64,000 nt of DNA from Burkholderiales bacterium 70-64 (GCA_001898645.1 MKUQ01000011.1:62001-126000), one strand, 5' to 3'; shown: positions 30,079-51,277, numbered from the stretch's first letter. The notes: generated from the sequence alone by a model not told the origin. Program-made: numbers and translations.

Positions 30079-30795
30079 ATGAATCGAAACCTGAAGGTGA
30101 AGGTCTGGCGGGGCGGCGCGGACGGCGACTTCTCGAAATACGAGGTGCCGCGACAAGCGAGCCAGACCGTTCTCGACGTCATCACCTACATCCAGCGCCG
30201 CCTCGAACCCTCGCTGAGCTATCGCTTTTCGTGCCGTGTGGGCGTTTGCGGCTCGTGTGCCATGACGGTCAACGGCATTGCACGCTGGACCTGCCGCACC
30301 CATGTCGCGAAGGTGGTCGAGGGCGATACGCTCGAGGTCGCTCCGTTGTCGAACCTGCCGGTCATCAAGGATTTGGCCACCGACATGGCCGAGTTCTTCG
30401 ACAAGTGGGCGCGCGCAAAAGGCAGCTTCCGCGGTTCGAAGACGCGGCATGACGAGTTCGCGCGCGTCGAGCCCGGCTCCCTGGAGCGCATGGCCGCAAA
30501 CGCCGGAATCGAGTGTATCGGTTGCGGCGTCTGCTACGCGTCCTGCGATCTCGTTTCATGGCGTCCGGACTATCTCGGCCCGGCTGCGCTCAACCGTGCA
30601 TGGACGCTCGTCAACGACATCCGCGACACCGGGCAGATCGAGCGCTTGCGCGCCGTTGCCGGGGACGCCGGCTGCCATGCCTGCCACACGCAGGGATCGT
30701 GCAGCGAACGCTGCCCGAAGGCCATCGAGCCGACTGCCGGCATCTCGGGGCTCAAGCGCCTGGCTGCGCGACGCGCAATGCGCGGCGAGCTTTGA
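30079..30795 (+). CDS. Succinate dehydrogenase/fumarate reductase-type iron-sulfur subunit
   Basis: A 238-residue complex II iron-sulfur protein. Plant-type [2Fe-2S] ligands are Cys52, 57, 60 and 72 in SCRVGVCGSCAMTVNG...TC. The C domain has CIGCGVCYASC and CHACHTQGSCSERCP for the [4Fe-4S] and [3Fe-4S] clusters. It passes electrons between the flavoprotein (encoded five genes downstream) and the membrane anchors. It is first in an operon whose order (B-C-D-fumarase alpha-fumarase beta-A) differs from the usual sdhCDAB, so this is probably a second, specialised enzyme and not the TCA-cycle one. Confidence 0.9.
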   Translation: MNRNLKVKVWRGGADGDFSKYEVPRQASQTVLDVITYIQRRLEPSLSYRFSCRVGVCGSCAMTVNGIARWTCRTHVAKVVEGDTLEVAPLSNLPVIKDLATDMAEFFDKWARAKGSFRGSKTRHDEFARVEPGSLERMAANAGIECIGCGVCYASCDLVSWRPDYLGPAALNRAWTLVNDIRDTGQIERLRAVAGDAGCHACHTQGSCSERCPKAIEPTAGISGLKRLAARRAMRGEL

Positions 30796-30804
30796 GGGGC
30801 TTCC

Positions 30805-30832
30805 GGTGAGAGGCACATGGTGAGAGGCACAT
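30805..30832 (+). repeat. 14-bp tandem duplication over the first anchor gene's start
   Basis: GGTGAGAGGCACAT occurs twice in direct tandem (30805-30818, 30819-30832), each copy followed by GG. Each copy provides a GAGAGG Shine-Dalgarno-like sequence and an ATG. The first ATG (30817) opens a six-codon frame ending at 30837; the second (30831) starts the anchor subunit. Confidence 0.9.
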
Positions 30833-31175
30833 GGTGAGCGCCGGGGCGGTCCAGGCAAGACGCTGGTACTGGCAGAGGATCAGCGCGATGGTGCTGGCGC
30901 AGTTCGTGCTGGTTCACCTCGCGACGATCATCTATGCGGTGCGCGGCGGGCTGTCCGGCGGGGAGATCCTTGCGCGTACGCAGGGCAGCTGGGCGATTGC
31001 CGCGTTCTACGGTGCATTCGTGATCGCCTGTGCAGTACACGTGCCGCTCGGGCTCGCGCGAATCGCCGAGGAATGGCTGGGCTGGAGTGGTCGATGCAGC
31101 AATGCGGCGGCAGCGGCATGCGCGCTGGTGATCGCCCTGCTTGGATTGCGCGCGGTCTACGCGGTGGTGGCATGA
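30831..31175 (+). CDS. Complex II-like membrane anchor subunit 1 (cytochrome b)
   Basis: A 114-residue protein with three hydrophobic helices. WYWQRISAMVLAQFVLVHLATIIYAV and AFVIACAVHVPLGLARIAEEWLG carry His residues placed as haem b or quinone-site ligands in SdhC/SdhD proteins. It starts within a duplicated 14-bp segment; GTG at 30834 is a nearby alternative start. Its stop overlaps the start of the second anchor gene (ATGA). Together they would bind the soluble subunits to the membrane and exchange electrons with quinone. Confidence 0.75.
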   Translation: MVSAGAVQARRWYWQRISAMVLAQFVLVHLATIIYAVRGGLSGGEILARTQGSWAIAAFYGAFVIACAVHVPLGLARIAEEWLGWSGRCSNAAAAACALVIALLGLRAVYAVVA

Positions 31176-31555
31176 GCGGATCGTTGAGCACCACGGCCTC
31201 GAGGCGCCGCAACGACTTTCGCGCCCGCAGGCATGCCTCCTGGTGGGCGTTTCTGGTGCATCGGATGTCGGGGATCGCATTGGCGGCGTTTCTGCCGGTG
31301 CACTTCTGGGCTCTCGGAGAGGCGCTGCGCGGTGAGGGCGGGCTCGACGGCTTTCTCCACTTTGCCGACCGGCCGCTGTTCAAGTTCGGCGAGTGGGGCC
31401 TGGTCGTCTTGTTGGCGATTCACTTGACAGGTGGTCTGCGACTGCTTGCGATCGAATTCCTGCCGTGGTCCGGATTGCGGAAGAGCTGGATCGCGGCAAC
31501 CGTAGCCTTGGGGATCGCCGGCGGCCTTGCCTTCGCGCTGGCGTTGATCGGATAG
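31172..31555 (+). CDS. Complex II-like membrane anchor subunit 2 (cytochrome b)
   Basis: A 127-residue protein with three hydrophobic helices. WAFLVHRMSGIALAAFLPVHFWAL is the SdhC-type HR-x-SG...H signature for haem b, and LLAIHLTGGLRLLAIEF supplies a second conserved His. The ATG overlaps the previous stop by 4 nt. It pairs with the preceding subunit. The fumarase alpha gene follows after 36 nt. Confidence 0.8.
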   Translation: MSGSLSTTASRRRNDFRARRHASWWAFLVHRMSGIALAAFLPVHFWALGEALRGEGGLDGFLHFADRPLFKFGEWGLVVLLAIHLTGGLRLLAIEFLPWSGLRKSWIAATVALGIAGGLAFALALIG

Positions 31556-31591
31556 GCCGGGGTGAGGACGAACGCAGAGGACCGAACGAGC

Positions 31592-32467
31592 GTGAAAGTC
31601 GATACCAAGGCAATCGAAGAGGCCGCCAGGGAGCTCTACATCCGGGCGTTGAAGATCCTGCCGGCTGACGTCAAGGATGGCTTCGCGCGACTTTCCGCAA
31701 GGGAGACCGACCGCACGGCCAAGGGAGTGCTCGCCACGATGGTAACCAACATCGCGGTCGCCGAGGACACCGACAACCTGTTATGCCAGGATACCGGCAT
31801 ACCCATTTACAACGTGACCGTCGGCCGCAACGTGGACTTCGACGGTTACGCGCTGAAGCAGGCGATCCGCAGCGGCTGCGAGCGCGCGACGCGTGAGCAT
31901 CCGCTGCGCTCGTCCGTCGTCCACCCGCTGACCCGAGTCAACGAGCACACCTCCTGCGGGATCGAGGTTCCGGTGATCCATATCGATTTCTCCGACCTTC
32001 CCCGGACATTGCGCATCGAGATGATCCCGAAAGGCAGCGGTTCCGAAAACAATTCGTTCCTGAAGATGGCGGTTCCGGCCGATGGTGTCGATGCGATCAA
32101 GGCCTTCGTCATCGATTGCGTAATCGCCGCCGGCGGCAAGACCTGTCCGCCGACCATCGTCGGCGTGGGTCTCGGCGGCACCTCCGACCTGTGCATCGCG
32201 CTCGCCAAGCGCGCCGCGACGCGCGAGCTCGGCAGCCGCTGCAGCGATGCGCGAGGCGCGCAGATCGAGGAGCAGCTCAGCGGGGCGGTCAATCGGCTCG
32301 GGGTCGGGCCCCAGGGGCTCGGCGGAGACGCGACGGCATTCGCGGTGCACGTCGAGCTTGCGGCCACACACATCACGATGAACCCGATCGCCGTGAACAT
32401 GCAATGCCACTCCGCGCGTCGGGCCACCGCCACGTTCACGCCCGAAGGCGTCTCGTTCGGATTCTGA
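31592..32467 (+). CDS. Class I fumarase-family hydratase, alpha subunit (fumarase/mesaconase/tartrate dehydratase type)
   Basis: A 291-residue N-terminal-type subunit of oxygen-sensitive [4Fe-4S] hydro-lyases. Cluster Cys residues appear in NLLCQDTGIPIYNV, EHTSCGIEVPVIHIDF and KTCPPTIVGVGLGGTSD; KGSGSENNSFLKMA is a further family block. Family enzymes add water to fumarate, mesaconate or related C4/C5 unsaturated acids. GTG 31592 is preferred, with AGAGGA 10 nt upstream; GTG 31562 would add ten residues. Glutamate mutase genes 13 kb downstream make mesaconate a credible substrate. The fumarase reaction itself is equally possible. Confidence 0.85.
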   Translation: MKVDTKAIEEAARELYIRALKILPADVKDGFARLSARETDRTAKGVLATMVTNIAVAEDTDNLLCQDTGIPIYNVTVGRNVDFDGYALKQAIRSGCERATREHPLRSSVVHPLTRVNEHTSCGIEVPVIHIDFSDLPRTLRIEMIPKGSGSENNSFLKMAVPADGVDAIKAFVIDCVIAAGGKTCPPTIVGVGLGGTSDLCIALAKRAATRELGSRCSDARGAQIEEQLSGAVNRLGVGPQGLGGDATAFAVHVELAATHITMNPIAVNMQCHSARRATATFTPEGVSFGF

Positions 32468-32470
32468 ACC

Positions 32471-33085
32471 ATGGCCCACTACGTCATGAAGATGCCGGTG
32501 GACGAAGGACAGGTCAGACGCCTGCGGGTCAACGACACCGTCACGCTGCAGCGAACGCTGTTCGGCATCCGGGACGCAACGCTGATCGCGCTGTTCGACC
32601 GCGGGCGAACCACGCGCTTCGACCTGCGCGGGCACGCGGTTATCCATACTGCGCCGAACGTGAAGAAAGTCGACCCGAGCCCGCAACATCCGGCCGGCTA
32701 CGCGCCGGTGTGCATCGGCACCACCACCTCCGACAGGATGGAGCGTTTTACGCGGCCGCTGCTGCAGAGGAACGGCGTGCGCATCGTTGTCGGCAAGGGC
32801 GGCCTGCGTGCCGACTCGATGGCGGCGTTCCGCGAGTTCGGTGGTGTCTATCTCGCCATTGTCGGCGGAACCGCAGCACTCGAGACTACCTGGATCGAGC
32901 GGATCGAAGACGTCGACATGGACGACCTGAACCCGGAATCGCTATGGGAGTTCCGCATCCGCGATTTCGGGCCGCTGCTGGTGGCAATGGACAGCCACGG
33001 CGCAAGCCTCTACGACGTCGTGAGGCACGACGTCGAGGCGCGGCGCGAGAAGGTGCTCGCCGACCTCGGGTTGAAGCCGCGGTGA
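32471..33085 (+). CDS. Class I fumarase-family hydratase, beta subunit
   Basis: A 204-residue C-terminal-type subunit that completes the active site of the alpha subunit; single-chain homologues have both fused. Family features are the opening MPVDEGQVRRLRVNDTVTL, GIRDATLIALF, a TTTSDRMERFTRPLL segment and VGKGGLRADSMAAFREFGGVYLAIVGGTAAL. The gene follows the alpha subunit after 3 nt and overlaps the flavoprotein start by 4 nt (GTGA), so hydratase and flavoprotein are probably made in equal amounts and act in sequence. Confidence 0.88.
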   Translation: MAHYVMKMPVDEGQVRRLRVNDTVTLQRTLFGIRDATLIALFDRGRTTRFDLRGHAVIHTAPNVKKVDPSPQHPAGYAPVCIGTTTSDRMERFTRPLLQRNGVRIVVGKGGLRADSMAAFREFGGVYLAIVGGTAALETTWIERIEDVDMDDLNPESLWEFRIRDFGPLLVAMDSHGASLYDVVRHDVEARREKVLADLGLKPR

Positions 33086-34845
33086 AGCTGCGCCGACTGC
33101 ACTTCGACATCCTGATCCTCGGTTCGGGCGGTGCCGGCCTGTTCGCTGCGCTGCACGCCCATCAGGTGAACCCGGGGCTGTCGATCGCCGTCGCGGTCAA
33201 GGGGCTGCTCGGCAAGAGCGGATGTACGCGCATGGTGCAGGGCGGCTACAACGTGGCGCTCGCCGAAGGCGACTCGGTGGAGCGCCATTTCATGGACACG
33301 GTCGAGGGCAGCAAATGGCTGTCCGACCAGACTCTCGCCTGGACGCTCGTCACCAAGGCCGTCGAACGCATCCACGAGCTCGAGAACGAGCTCGGCTGCT
33401 TTTTCGATCGCAACCCCGACGGCACGGTCCACCAGAAGGCGTTCGCGGGGCAGACCTTCGATCGCACGGTGCACAAGGGCGACCTGACGGGTATCGAGAT
33501 CATCAACCGGCTCGCCGAGCAGGTCTGGTCGCGCGGCATCACGCGGCTGGAAGAGCACCGGGCCATAGAGCTGGTCCGCACAATCGACGGCTCGGCGTTG
33601 TCCGGCGTGTTGATGATCGACATGCGAAGCGGCGAATTCGTCTTTGTCCAGGCCAAGGCCGTGCTCCTGGCCACCGGTGGCGGTCCGACGATGTACAGGT
33701 ACCACACGCCCTCGGGTGACAAGAGTTGCGACGGCCTGGCCATGGCCCTTCGCGCCGGCCTCCCTTTGCGTGACATGGAGATGGTCCAGTTCCACCCGAC
33801 CGGCTTGCTTGCCGGACCCGGCACGCGGATGACCGGAACGGTGCTGGAGGAGGGGCTGCGCGGCGCAGGCGGCTACCTGTTGAACGGTGCCAAGGAGCGC
33901 TTCATGGGCGAATACGATCCGAGGGCCGAGCGCGCCACCCGCGATATCGTGTCGCGGTCGATCTACTCGGAGATGCGCGCAGGCCGCACGTCGCCGAACG
34001 GGGGCGTCTATATCCAGATGCACCATCTTGGAGCCGATAAGGTACGCAAGCTGTTCAAGGGCATGGTCGAGCGCTGTGCCGACTGCGGCTTCGATCTCGC
34101 CGGCGGATTGGTCGAAGTGGTGCCGACTGCCCACTACATGATGGGCGGGGTGGTGTTCGGCGCGGACTGTACGACACCCCTCGTCGGCCTGTTCGCGGCG
34201 GGCGAGGACACGGGCGGCGTGCATGGGGCGAACCGTCTCGGCGGCAACGGCGTCGCGAATTCGACCGTCTTCGGCGGCATCGCCGGCGACAGCATGGCAG
34301 CGTGGGTGCGCGAGAACGGCGAGCTGCGCGATCCCGACACTGCCGCGATCGAACGCAGCATTGCCGCGCACGAGGCGCCGTTCGCCAGGCCGCCGGGAAA
34401 CCTCGAGCCGATCCGGGAAGCCCTCTTCGACTGCATGTGGGACGACGTCGGCATTCTGCGCAGTGCAGAAGGGCTCAGGCGGGGGGCTGCGCGACTCCAC
34501 GACCTCGACGTGGAGCTGGCAGGCGTCGGCGTTGCCGACGGCGAGAGAAAGTTCAACCTGAGCTGGCACGACTGGATGAATCTCAAGAGCCTGATCCAGG
34601 TCAGTCGTGTCATCGCAGCGGCCGCCCTCTCGCGGGAAGACTCGCGAGGCGCCCACTTCCGCGAAGACCATCCGGGAGTCGGCGACCTGGAGCAGTCGAC
34701 ATACACGGTCGCGAGGCTCGAGGGTGATGCAATCACGATCGGCCGTGAGCGGGTTCGGTTTACCCTGGTGCGCCCGGGCGAGAGCCTGATCGACAAAGGC
34801 AAGGCGCAACCAGCACTCGATCCAAGTGGAGGAGGCAGGCAATGA
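33082..34845 (+). CDS. Succinate dehydrogenase/fumarate reductase-type flavoprotein, Cys in place of the FAD-linking His
   Basis: A 587-residue SdhA/FrdA-like flavoprotein. The FAD motif ILGSGGAG is at residues 12-19. Dicarboxylate-site elements are kept: QFHPTGL, LEEGLRGAGG, RATRDIVSRSIY, TAHYMMGGV and GANRLGGNG. At KSGCTRMVQGG the residue aligned with the covalent 8-alpha-FAD His of SdhA/FrdA is Cys48. Loss of that His in FrdA abolishes succinate oxidation but spares fumarate reduction, so this enzyme may be a reductase, or act on another C4/C5 diacid. GTG 33082 overlaps the fumarase beta stop; its own stop overlaps the binding-protein start. Confidence 0.86.
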   Translation: MKLRRLHFDILILGSGGAGLFAALHAHQVNPGLSIAVAVKGLLGKSGCTRMVQGGYNVALAEGDSVERHFMDTVEGSKWLSDQTLAWTLVTKAVERIHELENELGCFFDRNPDGTVHQKAFAGQTFDRTVHKGDLTGIEIINRLAEQVWSRGITRLEEHRAIELVRTIDGSALSGVLMIDMRSGEFVFVQAKAVLLATGGGPTMYRYHTPSGDKSCDGLAMALRAGLPLRDMEMVQFHPTGLLAGPGTRMTGTVLEEGLRGAGGYLLNGAKERFMGEYDPRAERATRDIVSRSIYSEMRAGRTSPNGGVYIQMHHLGADKVRKLFKGMVERCADCGFDLAGGLVEVVPTAHYMMGGVVFGADCTTPLVGLFAAGEDTGGVHGANRLGGNGVANSTVFGGIAGDSMAAWVRENGELRDPDTAAIERSIAAHEAPFARPPGNLEPIREALFDCMWDDVGILRSAEGLRRGAARLHDLDVELAGVGVADGERKFNLSWHDWMNLKSLIQVSRVIAAAALSREDSRGAHFREDHPGVGDLEQSTYTVARLEGDAITIGRERVRFTLVRPGESLIDKGKAQPALDPSGGGRQ

Positions 34846-35873
34846 ACACCCGAAGCATCCGAGGCAGGGTCTTTGCACTTGTTACGGCCCTCGTCTGTCT
34901 CTCGGGGGCGCCGGCAATCGCCGGCGAACCCGTGTCCACGGAGAAGTTGACCCTCAGGGTGGGATACCCGCCAGTCTCGCCACTATGGGGATTTGCGGTC
35001 ATCCATCAGGAGAAGCTCTGGAAGAAATACCTGCCCAACGTCGAGGTCGAAGTCTTCGCGAGCCTGACCGGAATGGCGCTGGTCAACAACCTCATCGCCG
35101 GCAAGACGGATATCGCGTACTTCGCGGACACGCCGGCGATCATTCTGGCCTCGAAGGCCGATCTGATGCCCACTCGCCTGATCGCCGCCGACGTCGCGGA
35201 TCACGGCGGGTCCGCCATCGTGTACGTCGCCAAGGACTCGCCGATAAAGTCCGTGAGGGACCTGGACGGGAAGAGGGTATCGGTACCGTTCGGCGGCTAC
35301 TCGCATCGCTTCGCGGAAGTGCTGGCGGCGCGCGAGGGGATCGAATTCAAGCTCGTCGGACAGAGCCCGGAGGTCGGGCTGACGAATCTTCGCTCTGGAA
35401 AGGTTGACGCATACATCCCCTGGCCGCCGTTCGGCCCGCTTGCCGTCAAGAATGGCTTCGCGAGAGAGCTGCTCGACGGGACGAAGTACAACTTCGACGT
35501 CTTTCGCGGCGTCGTCGTGTCGCAGTCGTTTGCCGACAAGCACCCCGCAGTGGTCATCGGGTGGCTGCGCGCGCAACTCGACGCCCAGAAGATCATGCGC
35601 GAGAGGCCCGACTATGCCGCCAAGCTGATTCACAAGGAATGGGAGTCATATGGAATTCCGCTCGACGTCATCCGGGAAGGATTCGCCTACGAGAAATTCC
35701 CCGAGGGGATTACTCCGGAGTGGAGGAACGTGCTGATCGAAAGTGCGAAGTTCCTGAAGAATCATGGCTTCATCAAGGAGTCGGTCGATGTGAATCGGTT
35801 CATCGACGACAGCTACCTGGAAAAGGCGGCTGCCATCCCATCGCAGCTCGATCTGCCGGCGCTGTCCAGATAA
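34842..35873 (+). CDS. NitT/TauT-type ABC transporter periplasmic binding protein
   Basis: A 343-residue secreted binding protein of the SsuA/TauA/NMT1 group. A Sec signal (MNTRSIRGRVFALVTALVCLSG) ends near AIA at residue 27. The mature part has LRVGYPPVSPLWGF, LIAGKTDIAYFADTPAIILA and RDLDGKRVSVPFGGYSHRFAEVLA, typical of the fold. Relatives bind sulfonates, taurine, nitrate, pyrimidine precursors or aromatic acids; the ligand here is unknown. Its ATG overlaps the flavoprotein stop, an unusual direct coupling of a periplasmic receptor to a catabolic enzyme. Confidence 0.85.
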   Translation: MNTRSIRGRVFALVTALVCLSGAPAIAGEPVSTEKLTLRVGYPPVSPLWGFAVIHQEKLWKKYLPNVEVEVFASLTGMALVNNLIAGKTDIAYFADTPAIILASKADLMPTRLIAADVADHGGSAIVYVAKDSPIKSVRDLDGKRVSVPFGGYSHRFAEVLAAREGIEFKLVGQSPEVGLTNLRSGKVDAYIPWPPFGPLAVKNGFARELLDGTKYNFDVFRGVVVSQSFADKHPAVVIGWLRAQLDAQKIMRERPDYAAKLIHKEWESYGIPLDVIREGFAYEKFPEGITPEWRNVLIESAKFLKNHGFIKESVDVNRFIDDSYLEKAAAIPSQLDLPALSR

Positions 35874-35918
35874 GATCGGGGAAGGATGACTCGGGGCACT
35901 GCACCCGAAGGAGGCGAC

Positions 35919-35966
35919 ATGGGAAGACCATACAGGCAGCGGGGCGATGCAGACGCAATCACGTAG
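35919..35966 (+). CDS. Possible 15-codon leader peptide overlapping the permease start
   Basis: ATG 35919 follows an excellent AAGGAGG Shine-Dalgarno and opens a 15-residue frame ending at TAG 35964-35966, overlapping the permease start at 35947 in another frame. The permease itself has only a weak GCGGGG signal, so ribosomes loading here could be passed on by coupling. It could instead mark a small frameshift at the permease N terminus. Confidence 0.35.
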   Translation: MGRPYRQRGDADAIT

Positions 35967-36717
35967 CCGCTACTCGAGCGTCCTGTTCCAGCTCCTGGCA
36001 GTGATCCTGCTGGTTGCAACCTGGCAGGCTCTGGTTCAGTTCCGCATCTATCGCTTCGGCTACATCCCGTCGGTGCCCGATGTGGTGCTGGCCGCCCGCA
36101 GCTATCTTCTCAGCGTCGAGTTTTTCGACGACACGGTGGCAAGCACTGCCCGCGTAGTCGCGGCGTGGGGGCTCGCTGCGATCATCGCCATTCCGCTGGG
36201 CCTGATGATCGGATGGAAGAAGGTCTTCGGCAACCTGGTGTTTCCCACTCTGGAACTGCTGCGGCCCATTCCACCGATCGCCTGGATTCCGGCGGGCATC
36301 CTCTTCATCCCGAATATCGAAGGAAGCGTCGTCTTCATCTGCTTCGTCGGTGCATTCTTTCCGATCCTGCTCAACACCATGAATGGAGTACGGCGTATCG
36401 ACCAGACCTATTTCAGAGCCGCGAGCTGCCTGGGCGCGCGGCCGGTCGAGGTGTTCCGGGACGTCGTCGTGCGCGGGGCGATGCCCTCCGTCGTGATCGG
36501 ATTGGCGATCGGCATGGGAATCGCGTGGATGGCGCTCGTGGCGGCGGAAATGATAGCGGGCCAGCACGGCCTGGGCTACATGATGTGGCAGGCCTACAGC
36601 CTGGCGCAGTACCCGTTGATCATCGTGGGCATGATCGTCATCGGGATCATCGGAGCGGCAATGAGCGCCTGCATCCGCCTGCTCGGTAGGAATCTGGTGC
36701 CATGGCAAAAGGACTAG
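35947..36717 (+). CDS. NitT/TauT-type ABC permease (first of two)
   Basis: A 256-residue inner-membrane permease with about six helices, of the SsuC/TauC kind. The EAA loop that contacts the ATPase is GVRRIDQTYFRAASCLGARPVEVFRDVVVRGAMPSVVIGL. TLELLRPIPPIAWIPAGILF is the family's conserved helix region. It overlaps the second permease gene by 16 nt, so the two probably form a heterodimeric channel. A strong ribosome-binding site sits before a small out-of-frame reading frame just upstream. Confidence 0.88.
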   Translation: MQTQSRSRYSSVLFQLLAVILLVATWQALVQFRIYRFGYIPSVPDVVLAARSYLLSVEFFDDTVASTARVVAAWGLAAIIAIPLGLMIGWKKVFGNLVFPTLELLRPIPPIAWIPAGILFIPNIEGSVVFICFVGAFFPILLNTMNGVRRIDQTYFRAASCLGARPVEVFRDVVVRGAMPSVVIGLAIGMGIAWMALVAAEMIAGQHGLGYMMWQAYSLAQYPLIIVGMIVIGIIGAAMSACIRLLGRNLVPWQKD

Positions 36718-39246: not shown

Positions 39247-39350
39247 CTGTCGGGGCGGATGATCCTCTCGCCCCGTGCCTCGGAATCTCCCCAGGATTCG
39301 GCATTTCGTTCCTGGCCCTGGAATACACCAACCAGCGTTTGGAGGAGATG

Positions 39351-40445: not shown

Positions 40446-40476
40446 GGGCTTCGGCGACCGCCGCGCGGTGCCGCGA

Positions 40477-41394: not shown

Positions 41395-41428
41395 CAGAAA
41401 GAATTGCTATGGCTCGCGAGAATGATAA

Positions 41429-41447
41429 CTAGCTTTTGCTTCGCTAG
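41429..41447. promoter_or_regulatory. Inverted repeat upstream of lysR, candidate LysR site
   Basis: CTAGC (41429-41433) and GCTAG (41443-41447) with a 9-nt spacer, 35 nt from the lysR start in the 164-nt AT-rich divergent gap. Position suits an autoregulatory LysR recognition site. Confidence 0.4.
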
Positions 41448-41519
41448 GCAACTCGCCATAATCCCTCCATGGATAACGATCATGCTTGGATGCGAGCTTC
41501 GGTTGAGCATTGAATTGCA

Positions 41520-41537
41520 ATTTGATGACATTCAAAT
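41520..41537. promoter_or_regulatory. Inverted repeat at the promoter of the second transport operon
   Basis: ATTTGA-TGACAT-TCAAAT, a perfect 6-6-6 palindrome ending 21 nt before the binding-protein start. It is flanked by TTGCAA (41515-41520) and TATAAC (41537-41542), a -35/-10-like pair 16 nt apart, though a start from that pair would trim the Shine-Dalgarno. An operator at or near the promoter is likely. Confidence 0.45.
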
Positions 41538-41558
41538 ATAACTTCAGGAGACGAGACG

Positions 41559-42860
41559 ATGCATGTCATTCTCGGGCGCAAGAGCCCTGTTCACGCTGTT
41601 GGAATATGGCTTCTTGCGGCCGCCTCGATAGCGCTCGCTGCCGTGACCGGCAGCGCGGAGGCAGCGACCGATCGGAAGTTCAGTGATTGGGGTTGGCCGC
41701 TGCCATACGAGAAGGCAAGCCAGCGTTCCGTCGATTGGCTGAAGGAAAAGGGGTGGTGGCCCATACGGGTCGCCTTCTCGGCGCCATGGTCAGGGCAGAA
41801 TGCGGTCAACATCGTCATGGATCGCGAGAAGCTGCTCCAGAAGCGAGGACTCGAGGCGGAGTGGCAGGCGTTCACATCGGGGCCGGCGATCAACGAGGTG
41901 GTCGTATCCGGTCGCTTCCAGGTCGGCAATGCCGGAAATTTTCCCTATACGTCTCTGGTCGACAAGAAGGTTCCGATCAAGACGATCGCCATCCTCAGCC
42001 CGAACCTCTTCAACGCGCTGCTGGTACCGAACAACTCCCCGCTTCATCGGCTCACCGATCTGCGAGGCCGGAAAACGCCTGCAGTGATCGGCCTGGTCAC
42101 CGGCTCGTCCGCGGAGTTCTACCTGCAGATGGCTGCGTCGGTAAACGGCATAGAGATCGGCAAGGATGTGATTCTGAAGAACCTTCCGACCAGCGAGCAG
42201 CTCTTGTTTCCCGGCGGACTGGCGGCAGTGGCGGCATGGGATCCGATTCCGGCCTTGATCGTCGGCGACAAGAAGAACGGGCGGATCATCGACGATGGGT
42301 TTGCATATAGCATCTTCCAGGGAAGCTTCTATGTCAGGCAGGATCTGATCGATAACGTGCCGGACGTCGTCCAGGCGATCAGCGATGCTCACGCCGAGGC
42401 CGTGCTCTGGATTCGCCGGAATCCAGACAAGGCTGTCGATCTGATGCTTCAGGACCCGAACCTGAAGAGATTCCCGAGAGACATCATTCTCCATCAGTTG
42501 AAGGCGTATAACACTATCTACAGCCCGACGTACATATATCCGCACGCCGACTTCTGGGGTGCCGCGAACGAGCCGGTATACAGGTGGCTTCATGAGAAGG
42601 GCCGCCTCGTCAGGCCGCTCGGCGCCGCCGATTTCGCTGCAACCGTGGATGCAACGTTCATGGCAAAGACCTTCGACAAGCTCGGATGGGCGATCCCCAA
42701 GCGCCCGCCGTTCATCCCGGATGCGTGGGACGGCGATCTTTCGCGCCCCCCGTATCCCAAGTACGTGACTCCGTTCAGCAGCGAGGAGCCCCAGGTGTTC
42801 CCGCAACCGGGTGACCTCACGCGGGAGTGGCACTTCGCTGGCAAGACCTTCCGGCCATAG
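41559..42860 (+). CDS. ABC transporter periplasmic binding protein (second system)
   Basis: A 433-residue secreted protein with a Sec signal (helix from about residue 13, cleavage near AEA at 36). It belongs to the NitT/TauT binding-protein group but is about 100 residues longer than the first one, with extra N-terminal (WGWPLPYEKASQRSVDWLKEKGWWPI) and C-terminal Pro-rich segments. The core has EWQAFTSGPAINEVVVSGRFQVGNAGNFPY, the usual ligand-cleft start. AGGAG precedes the ATG. Ligand unknown; an acidic compound related to glutamate or a branched dicarboxylate is suggested only by the enzymes downstream. Confidence 0.83.
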   Translation: MHVILGRKSPVHAVGIWLLAAASIALAAVTGSAEAATDRKFSDWGWPLPYEKASQRSVDWLKEKGWWPIRVAFSAPWSGQNAVNIVMDREKLLQKRGLEAEWQAFTSGPAINEVVVSGRFQVGNAGNFPYTSLVDKKVPIKTIAILSPNLFNALLVPNNSPLHRLTDLRGRKTPAVIGLVTGSSAEFYLQMAASVNGIEIGKDVILKNLPTSEQLLFPGGLAAVAAWDPIPALIVGDKKNGRIIDDGFAYSIFQGSFYVRQDLIDNVPDVVQAISDAHAEAVLWIRRNPDKAVDLMLQDPNLKRFPRDIILHQLKAYNTIYSPTYIYPHADFWGAANEPVYRWLHEKGRLVRPLGAADFAATVDATFMAKTFDKLGWAIPKRPPFIPDAWDGDLSRPPYPKYVTPFSSEEPQVFPQPGDLTREWHFAGKTFRP

Positions 42861-42927
42861 CATCGGGATCGAAGGGTGTCATGGACGATGTTTCACGGGA
42901 TGTCGATAACCGGACAAGGGGGCATTC

Positions 42928-43740
42928 GTGTCGGCTATCGGGGATGAAGTGAGCTCACTTCGCTTTGGTCAACCGTTACGTGGCTTCGCCTGTCGATGTC
43001 GGCCCTACGTCTTTCTCCTGGCTCTGCTTGGCTTGTGGCAGTGGGCGAGCACCTTTGTCCTGGACGATTCCGAGCGCCTGTTGCTGCCTACGCCGACGGC
43101 CGTCGTGGAGGCGGGCTGGGAGTTGATGATCTCGGGGGACCTGTTTCGACACACCTGGGATAGCCTCAGACGCGAGATGGTGGCGTTCTGTTGGGCTACG
43201 GTTGCCATACCGGTGGGCATTGCGATGGCCTGGTGGAGACCCGTGGAGGAGCAGCTTGGCACGGTCCTCGAGTTGCTGCGGCCGATACCTCCCCTGGCAT
43301 GGATTCCATTGAGCATGTTATGGCTCGGGATCGGGGACACCCAGAATCAGTTCATCATTTTCCTTGGAATGGTGTTTCCGATTCTCGTGAATACCGTCAG
43401 CAGCGTGAAGCAGATCGACCCGGTTCTGATTCGAGCGGCCCGCAGTCTCGGCGCTTCGGAGCTGAAGGTGCTGCTGAGGATCGTCGTTAACGCCGCATTG
43501 CCCCAGATCGTGACCGGCATTCGCATCGGACTCGGGGTGGGCTGGATGGCGCTGGTTGCGGCCGAGCTGGTGGGCGCGACGTCCGGTCTGGGCTTCCTGA
43601 TCAACGATGCGCGCACCGTGCTGCGTACGGACTACATCATCGTCGGAATGGCGGCGATCGGCGTGATAGGCCTTCTACTGGATGCCCTGATCCGCGTCGC
43701 CATGGCAAGGATGATGCCCTGGTATCAAGGTGCGAAGTAG
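42928..43740 (+). CDS. NitT/TauT-type ABC permease (second system)
   Basis: A 270-residue permease with about six helices. TVLELLRPIPPLAWIPLSMLWLG and the EAA loop SSVKQIDPVLIRAARSLGASELKVLLRIVVNAALPQIVTGI identify the family. GTG 42928 follows AAGGGGG. It comes 67 nt after the binding protein. Only one permease is present here, so this channel is presumably a homodimer. Confidence 0.88.
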   Translation: MSAIGDEVSSLRFGQPLRGFACRCRPYVFLLALLGLWQWASTFVLDDSERLLLPTPTAVVEAGWELMISGDLFRHTWDSLRREMVAFCWATVAIPVGIAMAWWRPVEEQLGTVLELLRPIPPLAWIPLSMLWLGIGDTQNQFIIFLGMVFPILVNTVSSVKQIDPVLIRAARSLGASELKVLLRIVVNAALPQIVTGIRIGLGVGWMALVAAELVGATSGLGFLINDARTVLRTDYIIVGMAAIGVIGLLLDALIRVAMARMMPWYQGAK

Positions 43741-43772
43741 GCTGCTGAAGCAGTCGCTGCGAGAGGTAAGGC

Positions 43773-44540
43773 ATGAGTCACGTGGTCGTCTCCCAGGTTA
43801 CCAAGAGCTATCCGGGGCGTGGTGGGAGGTCGCAGCCGGTGCCGGCCCTGAACGACGTTTCTTTCGAGATCAGGCATAACGAGTTCTGCTCCATCCTCGG
43901 CCACAGCGGCTGCGGCAAGACGACCCTGCTGAACATGATTGGTGGATTCGAGAGGCCGACGCGCGGCACCATCATGATCGATGGGGAACAGATCACCAAT
44001 CCTCACTGGAGTCGAACGGTCATTTTCCAGGATTACGCGCTGTTTCCATGGATGACGGTTGCCGAGAACATCTCTTTCGGGCTGGAGATGAAGAAGATTC
44101 CGCGGGATGAGCGGCGGGATCGGGTTCGACGGCATATCGAGCTGGTCGGGCTGGGCGGAACCGAGGGGCGATTTCCGCATGAGTTGTCTGGCGGCATGAA
44201 GCAGCGGGTATCGATAGCGAGAGCGCTGGCCGTGGACCCGAAGGTGCTTCTCATGGACGAGCCGTTCGCAGCCCTGGATGCACAGAATCGCGGCTCGATG
44301 CAGCGCGAGATGGTGCGAATCTGGGAGCGGGAGCGCAAGACCGTCGTGCTCGTTACCCACAGCATCGAGGAAGCCGTCGTACTGTCGGACAGGATCCTCG
44401 TAATGACGCGTCATCCCGGCAGGGTCAAGGCGGACCTCGAGATCGGGCTGGCGCGACCACGCAGGGAGGAAGATCCTCAGGTCATCGCATTGAGAAACGA
44501 GTTGCGCGATCTGATCCACGAGAGCGAGCTTCAAGCATGA
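43773..44540 (+). CDS. NitT/TauT-type ABC ATPase (second system)
   Basis: A 255-residue nucleotide-binding protein with every motif standard: Walker A GHSGCGKTT, Q-loop FQDYALFPWM, signature LSGGMKQRVSIARA, Walker B VLLMDEPFAALD, H-loop VTHSIEEAV. This contrasts with the split, degenerate pair of the first system. The enolase-superfamily gene follows after 25 nt, so transport and metabolism are in one operon. Confidence 0.9.
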   Translation: MSHVVVSQVTKSYPGRGGRSQPVPALNDVSFEIRHNEFCSILGHSGCGKTTLLNMIGGFERPTRGTIMIDGEQITNPHWSRTVIFQDYALFPWMTVAENISFGLEMKKIPRDERRDRVRRHIELVGLGGTEGRFPHELSGGMKQRVSIARALAVDPKVLLMDEPFAALDAQNRGSMQREMVRIWERERKTVVLVTHSIEEAVVLSDRILVMTRHPGRVKADLEIGLARPRREEDPQVIALRNELRDLIHESELQA

Positions 44541-44565
44541 TTCGCCGAGCGGCGCTCCGAACGGC

Positions 44566-45657
44566 ATGAGTTCAGCAACCGATCCTCTCGAGTCCGTCGA
44601 GGTCATCCGGCTGAGGATACCGCTGGTCAAGCCGTACAAGCTCGCGTTTGGAAAGGTCGAAGCGTTCGATACGCTCATCGTGCTTCTGCGGTCGAGCGAG
44701 GGGCGTTGCGGCGCCGGCGAGGCCACACTGCTTACCGGCTACACCGACGAGACGATTGGTGAGTCATGGCGCCACTCCTGTGCGCTGGCCGATGCATTGG
44801 CAGGCGCCTCCCGCGTGGAGTTCGTGCGACGGATCCGGGAGATCGCCGCGTCGCTGCCCTTTCTGTCCACCTCGTTCATGACAGCCCTGGAGGCGCTCGA
44901 CGCGCACCCGCTCTTGCAGGTGGCGACTCCGACGCGGGTGCCGATTCTCGGTATCCTGAACGAGATCGAAGCGGGCGCGCTCGAGGAAGAGATCGAACGC
45001 TTGCTGGCGACGGGGTATCGAACGCTCAAGGTAAAGGTCGGATTCGAGGTCGTGGGCGATCTGCAGCGCGTCGCGCGTATCCAGTCGCTTGTCGCCGGCC
45101 GTGCCCGGCTGCGCCTGGATGCGAACCAGGGTTACACGGCGAGGCAGGCGCAGCGTTTCGCGGGCGCTCTCGATCCGGCCGGCATCGAGCTCTTCGAGCA
45201 GCCATGCGCCGCCGGCGATTGGGACGCCCACATGTCGGTGGTTCCGTATTCCACCGTGCCGCTGATGCTCGACGAATCGATCTACGGACTCGACGACATC
45301 GAGCGGGCGGCGCAAATGAAGGCCGCGCGCTACATCAAGGTGAAGCTGATGAAGTTGGTCAGTCTCGACGGACTCGTCGAAGCGATAGAGCGGATCCGGT
45401 TGCTCGGAATGGTTCCGGTGCTCGGCAATGGCGTGGCTTGCGACCTGGGTTGCTGGATGGAGGCCTGTGTTGCCGCGCGCCACATCGACAATGCCGGAGA
45501 GATGAACGGTTTTCTCAAGCCCAGTGCAGGCGTGCTTGCCGGTCCGCTTGAATTCGAGTCCGGGGCGATCGTCCTGAAGCCCGGCTTCGTGGGGCTTCCT
45601 GACGAGGCGGCGTTTTCGCGCTTCGAGACTGCGCGCTATCGAAGGAGACGAGCATGA
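44566..45657 (+). CDS. Enolase-superfamily enzyme, candidate 3-methylaspartate ammonia-lyase analogue
   Basis: A 363-residue enzyme of the muconate-lactonising (MLE) subgroup. Expected catalytic residues are all present: Lys155-x-Lys157 (LKVKVG), metal ligands Asp185 (LDANQG), Glu211 (FEQPC) and Asp236 (LDESIY), and a second-side Lys258-x-Lys260 (YIKVKLMK). The capping-loop end [14 protein letters not shown] is unlike common dipeptide epimerases. Its stop overlaps glmS (ATGA). In known glutamate-mutase operons an enolase-superfamily methylaspartate ammonia-lyase is the next enzyme. This protein is shorter than the classical lyase (about 410 residues) and does not look like it closely, so the role is inferred from position. 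Confidence 0.65.
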
Positions 45658-46091
45658 ACGGGCGCACCCTGGTGACCGGGGTTATCGGGGCCGATACCCA
45701 CATCGTAGGCAACCGCATCCTGAGCCTCGCGCTCGAGAAGGCCGGCTACAAGGTCATCGCCCTCGGCGCGCTGACGCCGGCGCAGGATTTCATCAAGGCG
45801 GCAATCGAGACCGATGCCGATGGCATCATGGTCTCCTCGCTGTATGGGTTGGGCGAGATCGACTGCCGGGGTTTCCGCGACCTGTGCATCGAGGCCGGGC
45901 TCGACGATATTCTCATCTACCTTGGAGGCAATCTCGTCGTCGGCAAGGCCATGTGGCCAGAGGTCGAGCGCAAGTTCCTCGACATGGGCTTCGATCGGGT
46001 GTTTCCGCCCGGTACCCGCGTAGATGCGGTGCTCGGCGCTCTGGCGCAGGACTTCGCCGACCGCGAAAGGCGCGGCCGGACACCGGCATGA
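45654..46091 (+). CDS. glmS: Glutamate mutase small (sigma) subunit, B12-binding
   Basis: GlmS (145 residues) binds coenzyme B12 for the carbon-skeleton rearrangement of L-glutamate to (2S,3S)-3-methylaspartate. The cobalamin motif Asp14-x-His16-x2-Gly19 ([12 protein letters not shown]) is intact, with the lower loop [18 protein letters not shown] and the GGN segment YLGGNLVVG. Its start overlaps the enolase-superfamily gene and its stop overlaps glmL, each by 4 nt. Confidence 0.92.
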
Positions 46092-47494
46092 GCCACGCGT
46101 TGCTCATCGACTTCGGCAGCACCTTCACCAAGCTGCGTGCGGTGGACCTGGGCAGCTGCCGCATCGCGGCTGCGGCGCAGGCGCCCTCGACCGTGACGAG
46201 CGACGTCAATCTCGGCCTCGACGAGGCACTCTCGCGCCTGGGCGAGGAGCTCGGCGGACTCCCCAGGTTCAGGTATCGGCTGGCCTCCAGCAGTGCGGCG
46301 GGGGGGCTGAGGATGGTCACCGTCGGGCTGGTGCGTGAGCTGACCGCAGAGGCGGCGCGACAGGCTGCGTTGGGCGCGGGAGCAAGGCTGGTCGGAAGCT
46401 TTGCCTACCGCCTCACCTCGACCGACGTACACCGCCTCGAGGAGTGCCAGCCGGACCTGTTGCTCCTGTGCGGGGGCACCGATGGCGGCAACAGCGACGT
46501 GATCGTTCATAACGCTCGCGTGCTCGCCGGCAGCGGACTGGCCTGCCCGTTCGTGGTCGCCGGAAACCGCGACGCGTCCGATGAGATCGCCGCGATGCTG
46601 GCCGGGGCCGGCAAGACCGCCGTGGCTGCCGACAACGTCATGCCCGAGCTCAATGTGCTGTCGATCGAGCCGGCGCGCAAGGCGATCCGGGAGCTGTTCA
46701 TGGCGCGCATCGTCACAGCGAAGGGCATCGATCGGGCACAGGCGAAGTTCGATCGGGTCCTCATGCCGACGCCGGCGGCGGTGCTGGAAGGTGCTCGGTT
46801 GCTCGCCGAGGGCGTCGGCAGCGAGCCGGGCATGGGCGACCTGATGGTGGTCGACCCCGGTGGCGCCACCACGGACGTACATTCGATCGGGAAGGGTGCG
46901 CCGGCGCAGCCGGGTGTCCTGCTCTACGGGCTGCCCGAGCCCTACGCCAAGCGAACGGTGGAGGGCGACCTCGGCATGCGCTACAACGCCCAGGCGATCG
47001 CCGAGGTGGCGAGCCTCGAGGTGATCGCCCGCGATGCTGGGCTCGGCGTCGAGCGCACGCGTGAAATGGTCTCGCGTCTCGTCCGTGAAGTGGGTCGGCT
47101 GCCGCGGGACGACGACGATCGGGCCATCGATCGGGCGCTGGCCAGCGCCGCGGTGCGCGTTGCGGTCGCCCGGCACGCGGGGCGTATCGAGACGGTCTAC
47201 ACGGCCCAGGGACCGATGCGGGTCCAGCATGGCAAGGATCTGACGCAATTGAAGGCGGTGATCGGGACCGGCGGCGTCGTCGTCTCCGCAGCCGAGCCGC
47301 GCCGCGTGCTGGCCGCGGCGCTGGCCGAAGGAAGCGACGGCTTCTCGCTGGTGCCGCGTGCCGCCGGATTGTGGCTGGATCATGACTACCTGCTCTATGC
47401 CGCAGGGCTGCTGGTCGAGCTCGAGCCGGCGGCTGCGTTCGGGCTCGTGCGCTCGAGCCTGACCAACCTCGACGAGGAGACGACTCATGGCTGA
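46088..47494 (+). CDS. glmL: Glutamate mutase-associated GlmL/MutL protein
   Basis: A 468-residue member of the GlmL family, with the ASKHA ATPase fold ([16 protein letters not shown] at the N terminus; [14 protein letters not shown] about residue 255; GTGGVVVSA near 395). GlmL is found between the two mutase subunits in glutamate-mutase operons and is thought to reactivate or load the B12 enzyme. [19 protein letters not shown] is a family block. ATG 46088 overlaps glmS; the end overlaps glmE by 8 nt. Confidence 0.9.
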
Positions 47495-48995
47495 CGCGGC
47501 TTCCGACGGGCTTCGCACCCGGCAACCCCTGAGCGAGGCACCGATTGCGTGGGACGAGTTCGAAGTGCTTCGCGCCGAGAACCTTGCACGTTGGCCGACC
47601 GGGTCCGAAGTGCACCTGGATGAAGCGGTCGCCTACCATGCCGGGCTTCCCGAGCACAAGCGGTTGGCGGCGGTGCTGCGGCGGGCCAAGGAAGAGCGCC
47701 GCTGCCTCACCCAGCCGCGTGGCGGCTTCGGGACGCTGCGGCTGCAGCGGGAATTGATGCAGGCGCTCGATCGTGACGGCCTCGCCGACATCGTGCCGAC
47801 GACCACCGACAGCTATACGAGGAACGAGCAGTTCACGAAGGCCGCGAAAGGATCGCAGGAGTCAGAAGCGGCGGGCCGCTCGCTTCTCAACGGCTTCCCG
47901 ATCGTGAACTACGGCGTAGCTGCCTGTCGCGAGCTGGTGGAGGCGATCGAAAAGCCGGCGATCATGCTCACGGGCACCGCGATGCCGAAGCTGGTGGGCG
48001 AAATCGGCTATGCCGCCGGCTACACCGGCTTTCTCGGGTCCGGGATCGCCTATACGGTTTCGTACACGAAAGAGCACACGATCGAGGACGGCATCCGGAA
48101 CTACCAGTATCTCGACCGGCTGGCGGCGCTCTATGCGCAACACGGCGTGTTGCTGCATCGTCGCCAACCAGGGTTCCTGACCGGCACCAACGTCCCGCCG
48201 TGCATCGCAATCTCCATCGCAGTGCTCGATTGCCTGCTGGCCGCGGCGCAGGGCGTCCGCCAGTACGGGCTCGAGCTGGGGCAGACGCTGCACCTGGTGC
48301 AGGACGCGGCGGCCATCGCGGTGTGCGAGGAAATGGCTCAGGAGTACCTGCGCCGGCGCGGCCTCACCGACGTCGAAACGCCGATCACCTCGCTGCACTG
48401 GATGGGCGCATGGCCGCAGGATGAGGCGCAGGCCGCGGCGATGGTCGCATTCGGAGGCACGCTGGCGGCGGTCAGCGGAGCGGTCTCGGTGACCACCAAG
48501 TCGACGCACGAGGCGCTCGGGATTCCCACCCCGCAAGCCAATGCGGAGGGGCTGCGGATGACCCGCATGGCGATCTATCTCGCGCGCAACATGCGCCTGG
48601 ACGGTTTGCCTGACTATGAGCGCGAGAAGGAGCTGATCCGGCGAGAGGTGCGCTGCATCGTCGACCGCGTGCTCGATCTGGGCGACGGCGATGCCGCCGT
48701 CGGCACGGTGCGGTCCTTCGAAGCGGGGGTTCTCGACGTGCCCTGGTCGCCCAACCGGCAGGTGGCATCGAGGGTGTTGCCGGCACGCGATGCAGACGGC
48801 TACCTGCGCATCATCGACCCGGGTGCGCTCCCCATGGAGGCCGACGTGAGGGAAGAGCATCGCGTTCGCCTGTCGCGTCGCGCGAAGATGGAGAAGGTGC
48901 CGATGGGCTACGATCTCGCGGTGACCAGCGTCTACGAGCTCTCCGAACCGCTCGACATGCTGCTCCCCGATACCTGGGCCAGGCGGAATCCGTAG
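47487..48995 (+). CDS. glmE: Glutamate mutase large (epsilon) subunit
   Basis: GlmE (502 residues; about 485 in Clostridium) is the TIM-barrel subunit binding glutamate above B12. Recognisable blocks: QPRGGFGTLRLQRELMQAL, IVPTTTDSYTRNEQF, LLNGFPIVNYGV, YTVSYTKEHTIEDGIRNYQYLDRL and ITSLHWMGAWPQDEAQA. With GlmS and GlmL it makes a complete mutase. Downstream, convergent genes encode the sulfolactate-lyase-like system. No classical methylaspartate ammonia-lyase or mesaconase follows, unlike clostridial operons. Confidence 0.93.
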   Translation: MADAASDGLRTRQPLSEAPIAWDEFEVLRAENLARWPTGSEVHLDEAVAYHAGLPEHKRLAAVLRRAKEERRCLTQPRGGFGTLRLQRELMQALDRDGLADIVPTTTDSYTRNEQFTKAAKGSQESEAAGRSLLNGFPIVNYGVAACRELVEAIEKPAIMLTGTAMPKLVGEIGYAAGYTGFLGSGIAYTVSYTKEHTIEDGIRNYQYLDRLAALYAQHGVLLHRRQPGFLTGTNVPPCIAISIAVLDCLLAAAQGVRQYGLELGQTLHLVQDAAAIAVCEEMAQEYLRRRGLTDVETPITSLHWMGAWPQDEAQAAAMVAFGGTLAAVSGAVSVTTKSTHEALGIPTPQANAEGLRMTRMAIYLARNMRLDGLPDYEREKELIRREVRCIVDRVLDLGDGDAAVGTVRSFEAGVLDVPWSPNRQVASRVLPARDADGYLRIIDPGALPMEADVREEHRVRLSRRAKMEKVPMGYDLAVTSVYELSEPLDMLLPDTWARRNP

Positions 48996-51237: not shown

Positions 51238-51277
51238 TTCACGATCTCTCTCGGTTGGATGGCGACGCGGCGGCGGA

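Follow-up and report, generated by a model that had tools for sequence, protein, structure and literature searches.

What is the function of a locus in which a complex II-like enzyme, a class I fumarase-type hydratase, a glutamate mutase-like system and an enolase-superfamily enzyme are encoded in two adjacent operons? We addressed this question in Burkholderiales bacterium 70-64, on a window of 64,000 nucleotides that corresponds to positions 62001-126000 of contig C11 (MKUQ01000011.1) in a 4.7 Mb genome. Operon A (30079-40445, plus strand) carries sdhB, genes for two predicted membrane anchors, fumarase alpha and beta, an sdhA-like gene, and genes for a substrate-binding protein (SBP), two permeases, two ATPases and a nitrilase; its sdhBCD-fumAB-sdhA core with the importer spans 30079-39246. 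Operon B (41559-48995, plus strand) carries genes for an SBP, a permease and an ATPase, then the enolase gene (eno), glmS, glmL and glmE, and a lysR gene on the opposite (minus) strand lies between the two operons. An earlier note on this DNA had proposed a single module of glutamate, 3-methylaspartate, mesaconate and methylsuccinate chemistry; all the genes it named were confirmed as open reading frames (ORFs) by ORF calling and translation. We show here that the two operons belong together as one module, as the note had suggested, and that the chemistry it proposed is probably wrong. The most likely function of the locus is the catabolism of sulfonated C4 (perhaps C5) dicarboxylates.

The two operons form one module

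A scan of genome contigs identified two loci, L007 and L008, from Burkholderiaceae metagenome-assembled genomes of the same genus, in which the two operons are a single compact cluster. A divergent lysR precedes the co-directional genes eno-glmS-glmL-glmE-qor-tctC-tctB-tctA-sdhB-anchor-anchor-tctC-fumA-fumB-sdhA. Genes common to these loci and the window are 74-87% identical, except for one 70% piece of the L008 glmE; this gene is found as two overlapping pieces, which suggests a frameshift. The importer is swapped, L007 and L008 having a tripartite TctCBA system instead of the NitT/TauT-type ABC transporters of the window. The eno-glmSLE block also occurs in L007, L008, L032, L033 and L034, and in L035 with tctC and qor inserted, and eno-glm is joined to sdh/fum in three loci, namely the window, L007 and L008. 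The sdhBCD-fumAB-sdhA block was found again in relatives, sometimes with transporter genes inserted.

Co-occurrence was evaluated in 399 genomes of the order. GlmE of this clade is present in 7 of them, the enolase in 11 (E 1e-60), the SdhA-like protein in 51 (E 1e-150) and SuyB, the sulfolactate sulfo-lyase large subunit encoded to the right of operon B, in 70 (E 1e-150). GlmE matches in G101 and G320 (35-36% identity) belong to other groups and were left out of the count. All 7 GlmE genomes also have the SdhA-like protein (p 3.8e-7) and SuyB (p 4e-6), and 9 of the 11 enolase genomes have the SdhA-like protein. Within the genus, 3 of 18 genomes hold the clade's GlmE (G000, G065 and G072), and G067 is without it and has the sdh/fum/SuyAB cluster. 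Outside the genus, clade GlmE proteins are 68-75% identical to that of the window. The search for co-occurrence suggested in the earlier note thus bears out its module claim, with linkage in two same-genus relatives and co-occurrence in every GlmE genome.

Twenty of the 51 sdh loci of the order were fetched, mostly from high-scoring and GlmE-positive genomes. Relatives of the window LysR adjoin sdhB in 4 of these 20 (L057, 78%; L063, 62%; L065, 50%; L068, 49%), lie elsewhere in the cluster in L060 (66%) and stand beside eno in L007 and L008 (82-83%). Because its relatives adjoin sdhB or eno in other loci, one LysR may plausibly serve both operons.

The sdh/fum operon is associated with organosulfonate genes

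The SdhA-like protein and SuyB are found together in 49 of the 399 genomes, with SdhA-like only in 2, SuyB only in 21 and neither in 327 (Fisher 2e-43). In 40 of the 49 genomes having both, the two genes are at most 20 kb apart on one contig. Counted by genus, SuyB is present in 24/24 SdhA-like genera against 30/158 genera overall (p 4e-23). The sdh/fum operon occurs without this GlmE in 44 of 51 genomes, yet with SuyB in 49 of them. The window protein was identified as SuyB because it is 87% identical to the product of the large UxaA gene that follows hpsN-hpsO in Cupriavidus pinatubonensis HN-2, which is the place of suyB. The locus of C. pinatubonensis is named hpsRNOUPsuyAB, and SuyAB is described in a passage of PMC11382572 as an iron-dependent sulfolactate lyase.

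By set thresholds, SuyB and SuyA were found in 14 of the 20 order loci, ComC in 16, TauE in 10, SlcC in 9 and a thiamine pyrophosphate (TPP) enzyme in 9; at least one sulfonate or sulfite marker was detected in 18. Beyond the end of L008 (L051) lie GntR, SuyA, SuyB (95%), SlcC, ComC and TauE genes, and beyond that of L007 (L049) TauE and TPP enzyme genes. The TPP enzyme of two scanned sdh loci was considered as Xsc and rejected, no cut-off being reached among the matches listed. A TctC-type SBP gene is present in 17 of the 20 loci (by threshold), often within the operon. In L065 and L068, from genomes of about 2 Mb, the whole sdh/fum/SuyAB/ComC/SlcC/TPP/TauE block lies within about 15 kb; the sdh/fum/SuyAB trait is kept even in small genomes.

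Plasmids show the same association. The SdhA-like protein occurs in 18 records, 6 of which, one of them a Rhodococcus, also carry SuyB 5.6-22.9 kb away; SuyB itself is found in 13 of 72,556 plasmid records (overlap p 1.6e-19). Loci were viewed in 7 of the 18 records, 6 of them annotated, and a TauE/SafE sulfite exporter is annotated in 6/6. A sulfite dehydrogenase or oxidase is annotated nearby in M. nodulans and Pseudomonas sp. MPC6, and the plasmid loci also list sulfate exporters, sulfolactaldehyde reductase (NT-25), UxaA pairs and Ldh-family enzymes. In the M. nodulans locus (L025), proteins encoded near the operon exceed the cut-offs for SorA (696 bits, cut-off 600) and SoxC (607 bits, cut-off 420), and a dicarboxylate symporter gene adjoins the operon itself. 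In Haloarcula (L031, 10275-13650), no class I fumarase is annotated next to the SdhA-like gene, whose neighbour is an argininosuccinate-lyase-family gene (TIGR00838, 323 bits, cut-off 279.5) that perhaps replaces FumAB.

A published observation is consistent with these data. In a passage of PMC12421959, growth on sulfofucose raises SuyAB, SlcC and ComC together with a cluster named "fumarate and tartrate" that includes a TauE homologue; the authors guess a Krebs-cycle role for that cluster. Since P. ferrooxidans carries an SdhA-like/FumAB/YeiH/TauE block, we infer that this cluster, cluster 3 of Paracoccus wurundjeri, corresponds to the present operon. Together, these results strongly suggest that the sdh/fum operon is linked to sulfonate metabolism.

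The SdhA-like flavoprotein has a modified active site

The alignment of SdhA-like proteins has 31 rows, 30 of them distinct, and reaches from the window protein as far as Haloarcula (49% identity); residues are numbered here as in Escherichia coli SdhA. The changes H45C, T254E and S404G are found in 31/31 rows. An insertion before position 254 carries Arg or Lys and is six residues long, five in Haloarcula. We take His45 of E. coli SdhA to be the flavin adenine dinucleotide (FAD)-binding histidine and Thr254 to be the substrate threonine. The catalytic set H242, E255, R286, H354 and R399 is kept in every row. The window protein scores under every NCBIfam cut-off among the best 25 of 31 matches. 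The genome's own succinate dehydrogenase (SDH), which is 35-37% identical to it, keeps H45 and T254, and a third family member, aspartate-oxidase-like, is separate from both. Because the pocket is changed while the dehydrogenase frame is conserved, we propose that the enzyme acts on a substituted succinate.

The mutase has lost half of the glutamate pocket

GlmS, GlmL and GlmE all exceed the NCBIfam equivalog cut-offs for methylaspartate mutase, and the B12-binding DxHxxG motif of GlmS is present as DTHIVG. Eight GlmE clade members were aligned (window, L007 and L032-L037; L008, in two pieces, was left out). All eight show R149L, E171L, H150T, K322S, P180S and F297W. R66, R100, Y177, Y181, K326 and E330 are kept. 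R149, E171 and K322 are kept in 3/3 GlmE proteins linked to methylaspartate ammonia-lyase (MAL), from Peptoclostridium, Ensifer and Salmonella, as well as in that of Clostridium cochlearium. In glutamate mutase, R66, R149 and E171 hold the glycyl part of the substrate, and R100 and Y177 the acrylate, as stated in a passage of PMC9545868. The glutamate-binding arginine claw with E171 is thus incomplete: R66 and R100 are present, R149 and E171 are replaced by Leu. In the tree, which warns of long branches among other rows, this clade is supported at 100/100 on a stem of 1.4 changes per column.

A canonical glutamate mutase, as the earlier note had it, was rejected on the loss of the glycyl-binding R149 and E171, although the family cut-offs are passed. 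Homocysteate was also rejected as a substrate: it would retain the glycyl half, whose ligands are lost, the acrylate ligands being kept. The mutase very probably acts on a substrate other than glutamate. The chances that this substrate is a sulfonate appear evenly balanced, and its identity with 2-sulfoglutarate in particular is improbable. MAL follows glmE in 3 of the 4 other plasmid GlmE loci viewed and does not do so in the window. No glmL lies beside glmE in L036.

Other GlmE-like proteins were encountered. The window's genome has two more genes of this kind in L004 (G000:C16:16000-35900), at 8294-9757 and 12068-13519, whose products are 31-32% identical to that of the window; glmS, glmL, a TRAP transporter and an IclR gene accompany them. 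Their pocket differs in another way (R66Q, R149N, E171N/S, Y177E, Y181H), and they likely represent a second B12 mutase of unassigned kind. GlmE-like proteins with Ser or Thr at position 171 are encoded in L041 (G068, 9011-10486) and L038 (G171, 9306-10718), hinting at several further mutase groups beyond the assigned ones.

The enolase is not a methylaspartate ammonia-lyase

The enolase matches PF13378 alone and is thus of the MR/MLE kind, and PF07476, the MAL family, has 0 matches in the genome. It was rejected as MAL on these grounds, and the mesaconate-forming lyase of the earlier note falls with it. Among solved structures, dipeptide epimerases and related enzymes stand closest to it. The KxK, D, E and D residues and the C-terminal Lys are kept, and an extra Lys is present at N266. 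The DxD dipeptide motif is absent, and the enzyme was accordingly rejected as a dipeptide epimerase. Position 296 is Asn in the window, L007, L008, L032-L035, L077 and L083, and Asp in L078-L082.

The eno gene adjoins glm in 4 of the 6 glm loci outside the genus. In L034, the product of the gene adjoining eno passes the Xsc cut-off (961 bits against 676), and two TauD/TfdA dioxygenases are encoded in the eno-glm locus L035. Relatives of the window GntR (40-51%) are present in 2/6 glm loci (L035, L037) and 3/7 eno loci (L077, L079, L082), and TctCBA and a sulfate exporter are encoded near the single plasmid relative of the enolase (41%). The sulfonate link of eno-glm is judged moderate. Where mutase genes are absent, in the six loci L077-L082, the enolase gene is beside or near TauD/TfdA-type dioxygenase and TctC genes; among these genomes, G210 and G300 hold GlmE elsewhere.

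Gene content of the window

The features are collected in Table 1. The nitrilase, the TauE and SoeABC-like genes on the left, and the ComC-like, SuyB, SuyA and GntR genes on the right are additional to those of the earlier note. The leftmost trio is called SoeABC-like here: the expected molybdenum, iron-sulfur and NrfD/DmsC domains are present, and no Soe-specific model or match was found. Compared with solved structures, the SoeA-like protein matched general molybdenum enzymes only. By context, the ComC-like gene would encode a sulfolactate dehydrogenase. The nitrilase gene closes operon A in the window and has no match in L007 or L008.

Table 1. Predicted features of the window and the matches on which their names rest.
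Feature	Coordinates	Strand	Evidence
NrfD/DmsC-type membrane subunit (SoeC-like)	24840..25742	-	PF04976 36.4 bits, PF03916 27.4 bits
4Fe-4S subunit (SoeB-like)	25785..26399	-	PF13247 and other Fer4 models
Molybdopterin oxidoreductase (SoeA-like)	26399..28999	-	PF00384, PF04879; best NCBIfam PhsA 220 bits, below cut-off 694
TauE/SafE sulfite exporter family	29153..29893	-	PF01925 116 bits, cut-off 32.6
SdhB-like iron-sulfur subunit	30079..30795	+	TIGR00384 190 bits, cut-off 88
Complex II membrane anchor	30831..31175	+	PF01127 25.0 bits, just below cut-off 25.8
Complex II cytochrome b-like anchor	31172..31555	+	PF01127 42.5 bits, cut-off 25.8
Class I fumarase-type hydratase alpha	31562..32467	+	PF05681 289 bits (over cut-off); NF004885 299 bits, cut-off 276
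Class I fumarase-type hydratase beta	32471..33085	+	PF05683 96 bits (over cut-off); TIGR00723 139.5 bits, below cut-off 145
SdhA-like flavoprotein, altered substrate and FAD sites	33082..34845	+	Family models, residue alignment
NitT/TauT-type SBP (operon A)	34842..35873	+	TIGR01728 147 bits, cut-off 163.5
ABC permease (operon A)	35947..36717	+	ORF, translation, operon position
ABC permease (operon A)	36702..37580	+	ORF, translation, operon position
ABC ATPase (operon A)	37580..38407	+	Walker A motif in translation
ABC ATPase (operon A)	38404..39246	+	Walker A motif in translation
Nitrilase superfamily enzyme	39339..40445	+	PF00795; TIGR04048 218 bits, cut-off 503
LysR regulator	40477..41394	-	Relatives in sdh/eno loci
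NitT/TauT-type SBP (operon B)	41559..42860	+	TIGR01728 81 bits, cut-off 163.5
TauC/SsuC-like permease (operon B)	42928..43740	+	NF007545 180 bits, cut-off 342
ABC ATPase (operon B)	43773..44540	+	Walker A motif in translation
Enolase-superfamily enzyme, MR/MLE kind	44566..45657	+	PF13378 97.5 bits; KxK, D, E, D, K kept
GlmS-like B12-binding subunit	45654..46091	+	NF002612 193 bits, cut-off 110; DTHIVG motif
GlmL-like accessory protein	46088..47494	+	NF040745 569 bits, cut-off 475
GlmE-like mutase with R149L, E171L	47487..48995	+	TIGR01503 455 bits, cut-off 390
Ldh_2 family dehydrogenase, ComC-like	49047..50048	-	PF02615 350 bits; best NCBIfam NF040650 218 bits, below cut-off 500
SuyB-like sulfolactate sulfo-lyase large subunit	50062..51309	-	PF20629 285 bits; 87% identity to C. 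pinatubonensis suyB place
SuyA-like small subunit	51278..51559	-	52% identity to small UxaA protein of M. radiotolerans; no Pfam match
GntR/UTRA regulator	51746..52486	+	PF07702, PF00392

A possible route for sulfonated dicarboxylates

Catabolism of sulfonated dicarboxylates by this island is the best explanation of the locus as a whole, and we hold it tentatively, at a little under an even chance. In the route that follows, we infer each substrate and reaction from gene content, linkage, co-occurrence and residue changes. The region of about 24.8-52.5 kb would be an organosulfonate catabolic island in which operon A imports a sulfonated C4 dicarboxylate. The most likely one is sulfosuccinate, a specific choice that we regard as possible and somewhat short of probable. 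The complex II-like SdhABCD would oxidise sulfosuccinate to sulfofumarate, passing electrons to quinone, and the FumAB-like hydratase would add water to the product. If the hydroxyl group were placed on the sulfonated carbon, a bisulfite adduct of oxaloacetate would form and fall apart; alternatively, sulfomalate could be processed by ComC/SlcC dehydrogenases and SuyAB. The sulfite would then leave the cell through TauE or undergo oxidation by the SoeABC-like enzyme.

Operon B would contribute a new clade of glutamate-mutase-like B12 enzyme, with the acrylate half of the pocket kept and the glycyl-binding half lost, so that a propionate-type acid, but not glutamate, would be rearranged. The mutase and the MLE-type enolase would probably supply the route above with a related compound, for example by converting 2-sulfoglutarate to 3-methyl-2-sulfosuccinate. 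Extended to all four enzymes, this reasoning gives a sulfonate counterpart of the methylaspartate pathway. The B12 mutase would form 3-methyl-2-sulfosuccinate from 2-sulfoglutarate (glutamate with SO3- for NH3+), the enolase would eliminate sulfite to give mesaconate or set a stereocentre, and complex II, with its changed FAD link and pocket, would handle sulfonated succinates with the class I hydratase. We consider this complete version unlikely.

Several observations weigh against the sulfonate interpretation. The Fisher tests ignore shared ancestry, and by genus the link of GlmE with the SdhA-like protein comes down to 4/4 genera (p 4e-4); all 6 GlmE genomes outside the genus carry the two genes on different contigs. 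Two of the 20 sdh loci (L059, L063) show no marker within the fetched stretch, and TauE, whose family is broad, was called at 30% identity. The SoeABC-like genes had no relatives in any sdh, glm or eno locus searched and are therefore outside the conserved cluster. By thresholds, a sulfonate marker is present in 1/6 glm loci outside the genus (L034) and in 1/7 eno loci (L081, a 32% TauE); other glm neighbours include AMP ligases, short-chain dehydrogenases/reductases, aldehyde dehydrogenases and TauD/TfdA dioxygenases. In GlmE, the clade-specific columns reveal no obvious new Arg/Lys pair near position 171, and the loss of R149 would not be expected if the pocket needed to accommodate an additional anion. 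Family models taken by themselves point to the ordinary names, since fumarase alpha exceeds the cut-off for fumarate hydratase and the three Glm proteins exceed those for methylaspartate mutase. Finally, the cells described in the passage of PMC12421959 grew on sulfofucose, not sulfosuccinate, and sulfite handling would fit too.

This last point leads to a first alternative, repair of sulfite damage. SuyAB would release sulfite that adds to fumarate, sulfosuccinate would be a by-product, and SdhABCD and FumAB would return oxaloacetate and sulfite, providing sulfite tolerance instead of a food route. The position of the operon with SuyAB, TauE and sulfite dehydrogenases is compatible with repair, as is the rise of its likely counterpart on sulfofucose with no sulfosuccinate supplied in the passage of PMC12421959. 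An imported substrate is however indicated by the TctC-type SBP genes of 17/20 order loci, the whole importer within the window operon and the symporter of L025, and we regard repair as unlikely.

The sulfonate genes could also be mere neighbours. In that case the mutase would act between glutarate and methylsuccinate, or else between 2-hydroxyglutarate and 3-methylmalate; its product would be racemised or dehydrated by the enolase, and the SDH and fumarase steps would follow. Leu in place of both E171 and R149 suits a substrate without an amino group, and 5 of the 6 glm loci outside the genus have no sulfonate marker. On the other side, sdh/fum is mostly without GlmE and nearly always with SuyB, so its own substrate should tie to sulfonates; a sulfur-free pathway is thus rather improbable. 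The same applies, slightly more so, to an ordinary second SDH and fumarase that would add tricarboxylic acid cycle capacity during growth on sulfonates. The checked catalytic SDH residues are kept, fumarase alpha scores over its cut-off and a Krebs-cycle role is what the authors guess in the passage of PMC12421959, but H45C and T254E are fixed in 31 orthologue rows, including Haloarcula at 49% identity, and the genome has a separate SDH. In the route of the earlier note, glutamate would be turned into 3-methylaspartate and this into mesaconate; FumAB would act as a mesaconase, and the complex II-like enzyme would catalyse the step between mesaconate and methylsuccinate in both directions. This route gains from the equivalog cut-offs passed by the Glm proteins and from operon linkage in two same-genus relatives, but is very improbable given a genome in which no MAL was found (nor is one behind glmE, as in 3/4 other plasmid loci viewed), a GlmE without its glycyl-binding residues, an SdhA-like protein that departs from SDH, and an sdh/fum operon that travels with sulfonate genes.

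Should the reading as sulfonated-dicarboxylate catabolism be true, about 1 in 8 sampled Burkholderiales genomes (51/399) would carry a complex II/fumarase route for such compounds, as would plasmids of Methylobacterium, Paracoccus, Cupriavidus, Rhodococcus, haloarchaea and others (18 records). These genes are currently annotated as "FAD-binding protein", "fumarate reductase", "succinate dehydrogenase" or "fumarate hydratase". Among them would be candidate genes for degrading sulfosuccinate, on which a common class of surfactants is built, and both B12 mutases and complex II would gain a substrate class. The full sulfonate counterpart would, to our knowledge, be the first case in which a B12 carbon-skeleton mutase, and likewise a complex II, is dedicated to organosulfonates. 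No description of a complex II/fumarase route for sulfonated dicarboxylates was found in the literature searched. Searches on sulfosuccinate and sulfofumarate returned surfactant, dispersant, material, toxicity and dye papers, with no such route among the matches listed, and combined searches (sulfosuccinate degradation, succinate dehydrogenase and sulfite; methylsuccinate, mesaconate, glutamate mutase and succinate dehydrogenase) found nothing. Linear alkyl sulfosuccinates degrade anaerobically, in a passage that names no enzymes (PMC5445686).

Comparison with known systems

The GlmES/GlmL glutamate mutase of C. cochlearium (PDB 1ccw/1i9c) and the three window proteins, which score over the equivalog cut-offs, have R66, R100, Y177, Y181, K326 and E330 in common. 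The window mutase differs by R149L, E171L, H150T and K322S, comes with no MAL and belongs to its own clade (100/100). With the MLE-subgroup L-Ala-D/L-Glu epimerase of Bacillus subtilis (PDB 1jpm), the window enolase shares KxK, D, E, D and the C-terminal Lys, whereas the extra Lys at N266 and the missing DxD motif set it apart. The complex II-like enzyme has the family, predicted anchors, iron-sulfur subunit and catalytic H242/E255/R286/H354/R399 of E. coli complex II (SdhA, PDB 1nek; fumarate reductase, 1kf6), from which its clade is distinguished by H45C, T254E, S404G and the insertion.

Pseudomonas sp. BS1 reportedly desulfonates sulfosuccinate directly, by a mono-oxygenase-type reaction that Quick et al. 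are said to have described in 1994. It would share the substrate sulfosuccinate and perhaps the product oxaloacetate with the present route, in which a dehydrogenase and a hydratase are used instead. The closest counterpart of the flanking genes is the sulfolactate pathway of Chromohalobacter salexigens, C. pinatubonensis and Paracoccus (SlcC/ComC-SuyAB with TauE), and the window likewise has ComC-like, SuyB-like, SuyA-like, GntR and TauE genes. Among the literature matches listed, no paper described its coupling to complex II and a class I fumarase-type hydratase, although the "fumarate and tartrate" cluster of PMC12421959 rises along with it; in the window, genes for both are present.

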